64,000 nt of DNA from Halostagnicola kamekurae (GTDB taxonomy: Archaea; Halobacteriota; Halobacteria; Halobacteriales; Natrialbaceae): positions 1,178,001 to 1,242,000 of the forward strand of contig NZ_FOZS01000001.1 in NCBI RefSeq assembly GCF_900116205.1, in the 5' to 3' direction. Positions 11,553-18,369 of this stretch are shown here, in pieces. The notes beneath the pieces were generated by a model that saw only the letters and a list, made by a program, of their open reading frames with translations, searched no databases and was not told the origin of the DNA. The position numbers and the translations under genes are program-made. The stretch's first letter is position 1; every line of letters begins with the position of its first letter.

Positions 11553-12503
11553 ATGGTCCCTATCGAAATCGATGGCCTCAGCAAGGAGTTCCCCGGTGAC
11601 GTCCTCGCGGTCGACGACCTCGACCTGCGGATCGAATCGGGCGAGATTTTCGGGTTCCTCGGGCCGAACGGTGCCGGGAAATCGACGACGATCAACGTCC
11701 TCCTCGGGTTCGTCGACCCGACCGCCGGCAGTGTTAGCGTCCTCGGGCAGGACGTACAGGGAAGCGAGTTCGCACAGACCCGGCATCGAATCGGCGTCCT
11801 TCCGGAAGGATACAGTCTGTATGACCGGCTGAGTGCCCGCGAGCATGTCGATTGGGTCGCCCGAACCAAACGCGCAGACGACGATCCCGACGAGATTCTC
11901 GAGCGGGTCGGCATCGGCGACGTGGCGGATCGCCGCGTCGGCGGATTCTCGAAGGGGATGCGCCAACGCCTCGCGTTCGGAATGGCCCTGGTCGGCGATC
12001 CGGATCTCCTCGTTCTCGACGAACCATCGTCGGGCCTTGATCCGACGGGAATGCAAGAGATGCGGGCGATCATCCGGGAGGAAGCCGCCACCGGGACGAC
12101 CGTGTTCTTCTCGAGTCACGTGTTGCCGGAGGTCGAGGCGGTCTGTGACCGCGTCGGGATCATGAACGACGGGCGGCTGGTCGCCGTCGACGAGATCGAG
12201 ACGCTGCGCGACGAGATCACGAGTTCGTCGCGGATCACCCTGGCGGTTCGATCGGTGCCGGACGAGCTCGGCCTCGAGACCCTAGACGGCGTCACGAACG
12301 TTCAGGTCGATGGATCCGAGATTCACGTCGACTGTCGAGCGACGACCGTCAAGCCGCGAGTCGTCAGGTACGTCGACGATCGGGCGACGATAACTGATAT
12401 CGTCTCCGAGGAGCCGTCCCTAGAGGAGCTGTTCAACAGGTATACGGGCGACGCCGACGCCCCCGACGAAGAGGCCCCCTCCCCGGCCGAGGTGACGGCA
12501 TGA
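11553..12503 (+). CDS. ABC transporter ATP-binding protein
   Basis: This 316-residue ATPase starts MVPIEIDGLSKEFPGDVLAV. The Walker A motif GPNGAGKST is near residue 37, the signature FSKGMRQRL near 133, and Walker B with LVLDEPSSGLDP follows. The extended C-terminal part (EPSLEELFNRYTG) is typical of ABC-2 type exporters of the NatA/CcmA kind. Its end overlaps the permease by 4 bases (ATGA), so the two form one unit. The substrate is unknown; export of a lipid, peptide or toxic compound is possible. The start lies about 30 bases after an A/T-rich stretch, consistent with a leaderless transcript. Confidence 0.88.
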   Translation: MVPIEIDGLSKEFPGDVLAVDDLDLRIESGEIFGFLGPNGAGKSTTINVLLGFVDPTAGSVSVLGQDVQGSEFAQTRHRIGVLPEGYSLYDRLSAREHVDWVARTKRADDDPDEILERVGIGDVADRRVGGFSKGMRQRLAFGMALVGDPDLLVLDEPSSGLDPTGMQEMRAIIREEAATGTTVFFSSHVLPEVEAVCDRVGIMNDGRLVAVDEIETLRDEITSSSRITLAVRSVPDELGLETLDGVTNVQVDGSEIHVDCRATTVKPRVVRYVDDRATITDIVSEEPSLEELFNRYTGDADAPDEEAPSPAEVTA

Positions 12504-13339
12504 GCGTCGTCGAAGTCGCCCGGAAGGACTTCCTCGACGTCCGCCGGTCGAAGATGATGTGGCTCGTCGTTACGATTTTGACCGGATTCTCCGGCTTGTT
12601 CGTGTACTTCCAGACCAGCCAGATCCCGTATTTCGAGAGCGCTCGGGCGGGCGTCGTGAGCGTTCTGAACGGCGTCCTCATGCTCGGTTCGTTCCTGGTT
12701 CCGATCGTCGCGTTCGTCGCGGCCTACCTCGCTATCGCGGGCGAACGCGAGACGGGGAGTCTGAAGTTCATGCTCGGCCTGCCGAACACGCGCCGCGATA
12801 TCGTCGTCGGCAAATTTCTCAGTCGGTGTCTCGTGATCGGCCTCGGTCTCGCGAGCGCGGCGCTCGGGGTCACCATCTTGCTCGCGCTGTTCTATCCGCT
12901 CGTCCCGATCGTCCCGTTTTTCGTCATGCTCGGGCTGTTGACGCTTTATGCCGTCGTCTACGTCGCGCTCGCGATCGGTATCTCCGCCGCCGTCGCGAGC
13001 AAAGCCCGCGCGGCGGCCGCCGGATTCGGCCTCTACTTCGTCCTCAACGTCGGCACGTTCCTCGCGTCGCCCGGCGCTCTCGTCCGCACAGTACACGCCG
13101 ACGTCCTCGGGCTCGGCGAATCCCCCCTCCTCTACCAGTTCGTCTCGCTTCTAGTGCCGCCCGAAGCGCTCCTTTACGGTGCCACCGCCGTCGCCGAACC
13201 GAACGGGCCAGTCACCAGTCCACCCGCAGACGCGCCGTTTTTCGTCCAGCCGACGTTCATGCCCGTCGTTCTGTCCGCGTGGATCGTCCTCTCGGTCGCT
13301 ATCGGGTACTACGCGTTCGAGTCCGCGAACGTGAGCTGA
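12500..13339 (+). CDS. ABC-2 type transporter permease
   Basis: This 279-residue membrane protein has about six segments in the ABC-2 permease arrangement. A cytoplasmic N-terminus (VARKDFLDVRRSKMMW) precedes the first segment, the conserved ERETGSLKFMLGLP motif comes after the second, and a final segment lies near the end (VVLSAWIVLSVAIGYY). GERETG...LPNTRRDIVVGKF is the coupling region for the ATPase. It is co-translated with the ATPase upstream. The substrate is unknown. The transporter sits between glmS and a surface protein, but no neighbour defines its cargo. Confidence 0.85.
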   Translation: MSVVEVARKDFLDVRRSKMMWLVVTILTGFSGLFVYFQTSQIPYFESARAGVVSVLNGVLMLGSFLVPIVAFVAAYLAIAGERETGSLKFMLGLPNTRRDIVVGKFLSRCLVIGLGLASAALGVTILLALFYPLVPIVPFFVMLGLLTLYAVVYVALAIGISAAVASKARAAAAGFGLYFVLNVGTFLASPGALVRTVHADVLGLGESPLLYQFVSLLVPPEALLYGATAVAEPNGPVTSPPADAPFFVQPTFMPVVLSAWIVLSVAIGYYAFESANVS

Positions 13340-16975: not shown

Positions 16976-17746
16976 TCACCCGTCGGCTTCTGCGTCGAAT
17001 CGCGGGAGCACCACTCGAGCGTAGTACACGAGATACGTGGCTGTGACGACGCCGTAGAGCCCGGCAGTGAAAACCGGCGACCAGTCCAGAACGAAAATCA
17101 AAAACGCGACCCAGAACCCGCCTCCGACGACGCCGCCGAGCGTAACGAGATGGAGTCCACCCCTGGTTCGAATCTGCATGTCGCTGTCAGTAGCGAGTCG
17201 AATGCCGATCAGTCCGGCCGTGAGCGACCCCCACGTGAGGACGGGCAGTCCGAGAACCGTCCAGACGTTTGCGGGCAACTGCTCGGAGGAGGTGACGAGT
17301 AGTGCCCAGCCGACCAGCCCGAACGCGGCCCACGCGATGCTCCGCAGGAGTTCTTCGCGCAGGATCAGGCGGACCTGCGGGCGCTTTAGGAACTCGAAGA
17401 GCGGGTTCTGGGTCCCGGTTGACTCTCGTTTTAATGCTTGCTCTCCTTCCGGTGACAGCGGCCACTCCGACTCCGGATGGTTGATATAGTACAGCGTCAG
17501 TGAGTCCGAATACGCCTCCGTCGCGACGACACCCTGCTCTTCTAGGTCGTCCAACCGGTTACGGACGGTGACCTTCGAGACGTCCGGCTTGATACGTCGC
17601 TGGATCTGTTGGAGCGAGAAGAACGGACGCTCGGCGTCGTACATCGTCTCGACGACGTGGCGGTGAGTGAGTTTCGTGTTCACCGTCCTGTCCCGTTCTA
17701 CTTTCTCTGCGATCCACGGCGGAAGCGTCATACGTTGCTCGAGCAT
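16976..17746 (-). CDS. Winged-helix protein with four C-terminal membrane segments
   Basis: This protein has about 256 residues from ATG at 17746 (MLEQRMTLPPW; the ATG at 17731 is also possible). The N-terminal 110 residues form a winged helix (FSLQQIQRRIKPDVSKVTVRN, then LEEQGVVATE). The C-terminal half has the block LREELLRSIAW, then four membrane segments and a conserved GLPVLTW plus LIGIRLAT motif. The membrane half is clearly paralogous to the gene at 17856-18266, which is transcribed in the same direction just upstream. A membrane-bound regulator is the likely role. Its ligand and targets are unknown. Confidence 0.65.
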   Translation of the reverse strand: MLEQRMTLPPWIAEKVERDRTVNTKLTHRHVVETMYDAERPFFSLQQIQRRIKPDVSKVTVRNRLDDLEEQGVVATEAYSDSLTLYYINHPESEWPLSPEGEQALKRESTGTQNPLFEFLKRPQVRLILREELLRSIAWAAFGLVGWALLVTSSEQLPANVWTVLGLPVLTWGSLTAGLIGIRLATDSDMQIRTRGGLHLVTLGGVVGGGFWVAFLIFVLDWSPVFTAGLYGVVTATYLVYYARVVLPRFDAEADG

Positions 17747-17855
17747 CGGTGACAAATTATCGGTTTCGCATAGGGTTCGGACGGTGGACAGCGAGACTGC
17801 CACACCGCCGGTCGAGCGCAGGCGTTGTTCGTCAGACAGCAGGGGCGATTCGGGA

Positions 17856-18266
17856 CTAGACGGCCATTTCAGAGACCCGGTCGGGCACACGCCTGTACCA
17901 GTACCAGAGGACGACACCCACCGTCGTGACGACGTACGCGGCCGTCACCCAGAGGACGGGATAGCCGCCCGCCGTGACGAGGTACACCGCGCCGACGCCG
18001 CCGAGGGCGATTCCGAGGCCCAGGCTTATCCACACCCCAGTCGATGTCCGCACCTGTAACTCGCTGGACGTCGCAGTTCGAATCCCGATCAAGACCGTCG
18101 TCAATAGCGCCCACGTGAGTACGGGCAGTCCGAAGACCGTCAGCGCGGTCGCGTCCAACCACGCCACCTCCGAAATCACGATCGGCCACCCGACGAGTCC
18201 GAGCCCGATCCACACGATACTTCGCAGCAGTTCCTCGCGGACGATCCGCCGCTGTCGTTGATTCAT
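17856..18266 (-). CDS. Four-segment membrane protein, paralogue of the membrane half of the downstream gene
   Basis: This 136-residue protein starts MNQRQRRIVREELLRSIVW. It shares with its downstream neighbour REELLRSI-W, GLVGW, GLPVLTW, LIGIR-AT-S and RT in the same order and spacing, but has no DNA-binding domain. It has four membrane segments and a basic, aromatic C-terminus (WYWYRRVPDRVSE). A partner that binds or titrates the membrane half of the regulator is a plausible idea. About 110 bases separate the two genes. A palindromic site lies 70-100 bases upstream of the start. Confidence 0.6.
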   Translation of the reverse strand: MNQRQRRIVREELLRSIVWIGLGLVGWPIVISEVAWLDATALTVFGLPVLTWALLTTVLIGIRTATSSELQVRTSTGVWISLGLGIALGGVGAVYLVTAGGYPVLWVTAAYVVTTVGVVLWYWYRRVPDRVSEMAV

Positions 18267-18335
18267 AGCTACAGGTCAGTCACGAATCGCGACCGATAAA
18301 TCACCGCGGAGAATTTTGCGGCCGGATAGCGGGGG

Positions 18336-18369
18336 TTTGCGCCCGCAAAGCCCGCTTTGTGGGTGCAAA
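18336..18369. promoter_or_regulatory. Candidate operator: 16-base inverted repeat
   Basis: Two arms of 16 bases, TTTGCGCCCGCAAAGC at 18336 and GCTTTGTGGGTGCAAA at 18354, are inverted copies with two mismatches and 2 bases between them. The left arm is itself the palindrome TTTGCG-CC-CGCAAA. It lies in the 370-base divergent gap between the membrane-protein gene (start 18266) and the glycosyltransferase (start 18637). It is a good binding site for the winged-helix protein encoded next door; that link is inference. The rest of 18267-18636 shows no gene. Confidence 0.5.

Follow-up and report, generated by a model that had tools for sequence, protein, structure and literature searches.

Transmembrane transcription regulators (TTRs), in which a DNA-binding domain and transmembrane helices are combined in one chain, are widespread in archaea according to the available text of a survey (PMC10269533). 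The ArnR and ArnR1 proteins of Sulfolobus acidocaldarius are membrane-bound HTH activators with an N-terminal DNA-binding domain and C-terminal membrane helices, and their target promoter carries inverted-repeat boxes, two of which are needed for binding (PMC6396743). In the LytTR regulatory systems (HdrRM/BrsRM), as presented in the accessible portion of the source, a regulator adjoins a membrane protein, repeats lie immediately upstream of the promoter and the systems are autoregulated, while LRS-like operons of Bacteroides encode membrane-spanning regulators (PMC6193735). In haloarchaea, the sites of the activator GvpE are adjacent to the BRE, with closeness to this element being required, and the product of the neighbouring gene, GvpD, antagonises the activator (PMC4390858).

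The window, the 64,000-nucleotide stretch of the Halostagnicola kamekurae genome that was analysed, encodes a putative membrane-tethered regulator (R) and a stand-alone four-helix membrane protein (S), with 124 bases separating S from the downstream R on the minus strand. The features of this locus are given in Table 1.

Table 1. Features of the R-S locus (window coordinates; negative positions are relative to the start codon of the gene named)
Feature	Position	Strand	Description
Regulator R (wHTH and membrane half)	17731..16976	-	ORF, 251 aa
R N-terminal wHTH	17731-17420	-	residues about 1-104
R C-terminal four-helix membrane half	17404-16979	-	residues about 110-251
Stand-alone four-helix membrane protein S	18266..17856	-	ORF, 136 aa
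Site O1	18356..18369	-	TTTGCACCCACAAA; -103..-90 of S; same position in 12/12 pair loci
Site O2	18336..18349	-	TTTGCGGGCGCAAA; -83..-70 of S; the only perfect TTTGYGNNCRCAAA of the genome
Site O3	18315..18328	-	TATCCGGCCGCAAA; -62..-49 of S
S core promoter	18296..18308	-	TATA box TTTAT at -34..-30, BRE region just upstream
Likely own promoter of R	17755..17768	-	CGAAACC (BRE-like), then GATAATT (TATA-like); -37..-24 of R, without operator site

The regulator and its stand-alone paralogue

Orthologues of R are encoded in 11 other genomes, with 61-70% identity to the window protein and open reading frames in all cases, while no second close wHTH relative was found in the window genome and a pattern scan of viral contigs yielded no relatives of R. 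A longer, 313-aa version starting at a GTG codon at 17917 was rejected, as the orthologues all start at M(S/T)LPPW or similar. In the AlphaFold2 model, which is of modest confidence (mean pLDDT 59; mostly about 65-78 in the wHTH), three helices and a beta-hairpin wing (H-H-H + wing) are found at residues 23-83, and the wHTH is followed by four hydrophobic helices, with no sensor domain between. Three of these four helices were flagged by a hydropathy script in the window protein, and all four in two orthologues. The top matches in the fold search are wHTH proteins (Fur, MecI and Hop2), all of them weak, and the Pfam HTH matches are weak and below the cut-off, with no significant Pfam or NCBIfam assignment. 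Neither the TrmB DNA-binding domain (PF01978; Pfam up to E = 1) nor a LytTR domain (Pfam and NCBIfam up to E = 1) was found in R. With a predicted DNA-binding domain and membrane helices in one chain, the modelled R fits the definition of transmembrane transcription regulators used in PMC10269533.

The S protein could not be assigned to a significant Pfam or NCBIfam family, including DUF4870, and its fold search gave no significant match. Its model, likewise of modest confidence (mean pLDDT 66), has four helices, the second and third of which are separated by a short beta-hairpin. S aligns with residues 119-240 of R at about 41% identity (E 7e-21 to 1e-21). The helices are arranged alike in the membrane parts of the two proteins, both of which contain the invariant juxtamembrane sequence I.REELLRSI.W......GW. 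Outside the membrane the two proteins have almost nothing besides the wHTH, with very small loops. Relatives of S are also encoded in about 20/392 Halobacteriales genomes without R, and the fold must therefore have functions independent of R. At one such locus (L100, 4519-5343) two stand-alone four-helix relatives are convergent, without a wHTH partner.

The S gene adjoins R in 12/12 genomes with R, and R was never seen without S. These twelve pair loci (the window; L039, L040, L055-L058, L089, L091-L093 and L125) include nine tandem arrangements, in which S is followed by R after 94-164 bases on a single strand, and three divergent ones (L056, L091 and L092). The first-pass annotation had recognised that the membrane segments of R are repeated without a DNA-binding domain in the gene at 17856, and had named adjacency of both forms in other genomes beforehand as a supporting test; both points are borne out, by the paralogy (41%, E about 1e-20) and by the 12/12 adjacency, respectively. 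The pair was found in 8/392 Halobacteriales genomes, and several copies are carried on plasmids or megaplasmids; together, these two observations suggest horizontal movement of the pair. In a tree of the membrane parts, the R halves and the S proteins fall on separate branches. Some of the orphan stand-alone genes are nested within the group of paired S proteins, whereas another, deeper set of stand-alone relatives falls outside. The simplest reading of this topology, the root of which is not fixed, would be an older stand-alone family, one copy of which was fused to a wHTH, with R lost later in some lineages.

Other genes recur beside these loci. An ABC transporter ATPase and an ABC-2-like permease are encoded within a few kb of R-S in three pair loci (window 11553-13339; L090 1680-3619; L091 8522-10420), which may reflect chance or the remnant of a shared island. 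Genes for bacterial-PH-domain membrane proteins (PF03703 in L057) flank the pair in Halorubrum (L057 4849-6043; L127 5849-7043), and a PH-type membrane protein gene also lies beside an orphan stand-alone gene (L094 7520-8977). These neighbours provide a hint of an envelope-related role.

A three-site array upstream of S

An inverted repeat with arms of 16 nt (18336-18351 and 18354-18369; 88% complementary) lies upstream of S, and each arm is itself palindromic (TTTGCGCCCGCAAA; TTTGCACCCACAAA on the minus strand). The TATA box and BRE of S were identified on the basis of the known archaeal promoter layout (PMC4158304), with the -34 element reading TTTAT or TTTAC in the pair loci and CTTAT in one, and being present in 12/12. 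In all twelve pair loci, the three sites have identical start positions relative to the S start codon (exactly -103, -83 and -62), and the TATA box is at -34. Strong conservation in O3 is limited to its TATA-proximal half (CGCAAA, then ATTCTC). After two near duplicates were dropped from the twelve loci, the mean information content amounts to 1.54 bits per base for O1, 1.39 for O2 and 1.71 and 1.05, respectively, for the right half and left part of O3, with 0.82 bits in both spacers and 0.36 bits in the upstream flank. Sequence identity among the paired S proteins is limited (46-95%, median 58%), yet the spacing of the array is invariant and the surrounding DNA is unconserved. The sites follow one another in steps of 20 and 21 bases, or two helical turns, and would therefore be on the same face of the DNA. 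All three are upstream of the BRE/TATA, with about 14 bases from the end of O3 to the TATA box, and none overlaps the TATA box or the start site.

The pattern TTTG-N6-CAAA-N5-8-TTTG-N6-CAAA has a single match in the 4.1-Mb window genome, at the S promoter. Given this single occurrence and the conservation of the array positions in twelve genomes, the repeat is far beyond chance. When the 61-base array pattern was searched in the 392 Halobacteriales genomes with two mismatches allowed, eight matches were obtained, one per genome, and the eight genomes are exactly those with the R-S pair in the same set (hypergeometric P about 8e-17), while the reversed control pattern gave 0 matches in the 392 genomes. 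The array is absent from the orphan stand-alone genes without R (L094-L108). The perfect palindrome TTTGYGNNCGCAAA occurs at the S promoter only, both in the window genome and in six of seven further pair genomes, and is absent from the seventh, in which O1 is one base off. A wider regulon of single sites was not evident in the window genome, where 15 sites per strand were found with one mismatch, versus 21 in the reversed control. Considering the confinement of the array to the S promoter, R appears to have one target, the adjacent gene S.

The first-pass annotation had placed the inverted repeat just upstream of R and suggested the nearby glycan genes as target. The repeat is real and its conservation upstream at orthologous loci held in 12/12, but it lies before S rather than R and forms part of the three-site array. 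The glycan genes were considered as targets of R and rejected; such neighbours are not conserved at the other pair loci, with no glycan cluster among the shared neighbourhoods, and the genome contains no further array.

A different element is found upstream of R. An element of the CCGAAAC..CATA type (GCGAAACCGATAATT in the window) recurs before R at both tandem and divergent loci, although this putative promoter is weakly conserved in several of them. The 75 bases preceding it contain no TTTG..CAAA site. At the three divergent loci the array still precedes S and the R-type element precedes R. R thus appears to be expressed from its own, site-free promoter, as judged from these elements. With S preceding R in the same orientation at 9/12 loci, transcripts running on from the S promoter could increase R as well.

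A proposed two-gene circuit and its alternatives

The perfect co-occurrence of the array with R makes binding of the array by R, and thereby control of S, very probable. R is envisaged as a membrane-tethered one-component regulator, made from its own promoter, the wHTH dimers of which would occupy both palindromes (O1 and O2) as well as the half-site O3, stacked on one DNA face. Bound R would then activate S from directly upstream of the S BRE/TATA. Activation is the likely sign of regulation, and is favoured by position alone, as the sites lie just upstream of the BRE/TATA. Repressors that bind near the BRE exist too. S, which carries the same four-helix module, would then probably act on R through the homologous membrane halves, by pairing or competing with it. 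The sole promoter controlled by R would in this way yield a protein that feeds back on R, probably damping it. A self-contained circuit of this kind, in which R activates S via the array and S feeds back on R, is favoured with some reserve. A physical R-S heteromer in which S inhibits R, as suggested in the first-pass annotation, is proposed tentatively, at somewhat below even chances. That a free copy of the sensing membrane half of R is both sole target and antagonist, with heteromers closing a negative feedback loop around one promoter, is conceivable but rather doubtful. Considering that R and S are almost without extra-membrane parts besides the wHTH, the signal would probably come from some property of the membrane itself, or from an ion or small molecule located there.

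The alternative that retains most weight, although it too is more doubtful than probable, is that S is a plain effector (for instance a channel, a transporter or an envelope-stress protein), with the homologous half of R sensing the same ligand and no heteromer being formed. The fold evidently works alone in the stand-alone relatives noted above, and the partner in the related units described below is an unrelated DUF4870 membrane protein, so homology between partners is not needed. However, R was never found without S, and the two halves retain both the same helix layout and the REELLRS..W....GW juxtamembrane motif, which weighs against this alternative.

It is unlikely that R instead represses S, with the array blocking the promoter until a membrane signal frees R and S acting as an induced effector or signal-clearing protein. 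One-target regulators often repress a neighbour gene, and with O3 ending so close to the TATA box bulky membrane-tethered dimers could hinder TFB. Against this, no site overlaps the TATA box or start site, and a position of all sites upstream of the BRE/TATA is the layout linked to activation in archaea, as for TrmBL1, Tgr, VNG1451C and Ptr2 (PMC4158304) and for GvpE (PMC4390858). A positive loop across the whole operon, in which transcription of S-R depends on activation by R, with S as inhibitor in the resting state, is similarly improbable. The tandem order of S and R at 9/12 loci would suit such a loop and the LytTR systems, in the part of their description available, offer a precedent (PMC6193735), but three loci are divergent and R apparently has its own site-free promoter, and positive autoregulation of R can thus not be general. 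Although we infer the binding of R to the array, it is highly improbable that a different regulator binds there and R acts elsewhere, given the perfect agreement between the occurrence of the array and that of R over 392 genomes, across differing replicons and contexts, the absence of the array from orphan S genes, and the lack of any further close wHTH relative in the window genome.

Related units and comparison with described systems

Many haloarchaea encode a wHTH with 55-65% identity to that of R (about 100 residues) which is joined to a two-helix C-terminus. These wHTH-2TM regulators have no Pfam name, and a DUF4870 membrane gene is directly downstream in 14/15 of the loci compared (L041-L054 and L128, the last on Haloferax mediterranei plasmid pHME132). 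Their promoters carry related palindromes, of the TTTGGCGNNCGCCAAA or TTTCAC....GTGAAA types, in one to three copies just before the TATA box. These units thus resemble R-S in having a homologous wHTH, a membrane tether, an adjoining membrane partner and a palindrome directly upstream of the TATA box. In contrast, R has four helices rather than two, S shows no detectable relation to DUF4870, and the array precedes S, whereas in the wHTH-2TM/DUF4870 units the regulator gene itself is directly behind the operator. Shared ancestry of the three membrane parts (two-helix C-terminus, four-helix module and DUF4870) was considered and is unsupported, with hhalign detecting no mutual relation (probability under 1%). 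Since the cousin wHTHs have related palindromes at the same place before the TATA box, the site would thus follow the DNA-binding domain, with membrane module and partner having changed together. The cousins suggest a general haloarchaeal design, in which one DNA-binding domain is combined with varied membrane modules and matching partners.

In one genus of Natrialbaceae, a tandem upstream copy of the cousin regulator is split by one extra base in 10/10 species (L140-L149). The extra base is found at the invariant TTY-TTT-CTC-GG of codons 36-39 in all ten species (e.g. L041 6016-6684), and a +1-shifted reading gives a complete protein of 187-196 aa in 10/10, while the unshifted reading ends at scattered stops. 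Purifying selection is evident on both sides of the shift (pN/pS 0.39 before and about 0.5 after). This copy looks like a candidate for programmed +1 ribosomal frameshifting. According to a 2021 review, a single case, of the -1 type, had been reported from an archaeon itself, and for a haloarchaeal virus a +1 event had been suggested (PMC8211752); archaeal chromosomal +1 frameshifting seems hardly documented.

Among the described systems, R shares with the TTRs the presence of a wHTH and membrane helices in one chain, while the available text of the TTR survey describes neither a stand-alone paralogue of the membrane half nor a dedicated array at a single promoter (PMC10269533). No description was found in the open-access literature of a regulator that has its own membrane half, as a free copy, for a partner, combined with a three-site array at a single promoter. 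The control logic was regarded as uncommon in the first-pass annotation. This is too broad, as an activator with an adjacent antagonist is already known from GvpE/GvpD (PMC4390858) and, in the text available, from the LytTR systems (PMC6193735).

As in ArnR, an archaeal membrane-bound HTH protein is combined with paired inverted repeats as predicted sites. However, ArnR has a HAMP-like and a sensor domain and two membrane helices, whereas in R four helices follow straight after the wHTH, and the ArnR boxes are TCGAC-N5-GTCGA, whereas the R-S sites are TTTGYGNNCGCAAA-like; R therefore does not group with ArnR on either count. Furthermore, ArnR targets archaellum and pilus genes, and its paralogue ArnR1 retains the HTH, unlike S (PMC6396743). 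The LytTR systems, as far as their description is available, share a membrane protein gene adjoining the regulator (12/12 loci for R-S) and repeats abutting the promoter. They differ in having a LytTR domain and direct repeats, where R-S has a wHTH and, in the corresponding place, palindromes at 20-21-base steps, and no paralogy between their membrane inhibitor and the membrane half of the regulator is described there (PMC6193735). Since both the DNA-binding domain and the type of repeat differ, the R-S circuit is not a member of the LytTR regulatory systems. GvpE/GvpD likewise combine a haloarchaeal regulator, a site by the BRE and a neighbour gene, with antagonism by S being only proposed. 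GvpE is leucine-zipper-like and not membrane-tethered, unlike R, while GvpD, unlike S, is a P-loop protein which lowers the level of GvpE, and the targets are gas vesicle operons (PMC4390858). Archaeal membrane-bound regulators are common, but few have a known target, site or partner; for R, comparison of twelve genomes fixes which promoter is targeted, where exactly the sites lie and which protein is the probable partner, and the R-S pair makes it directly testable how a membrane-held protein reads DNA and is switched.
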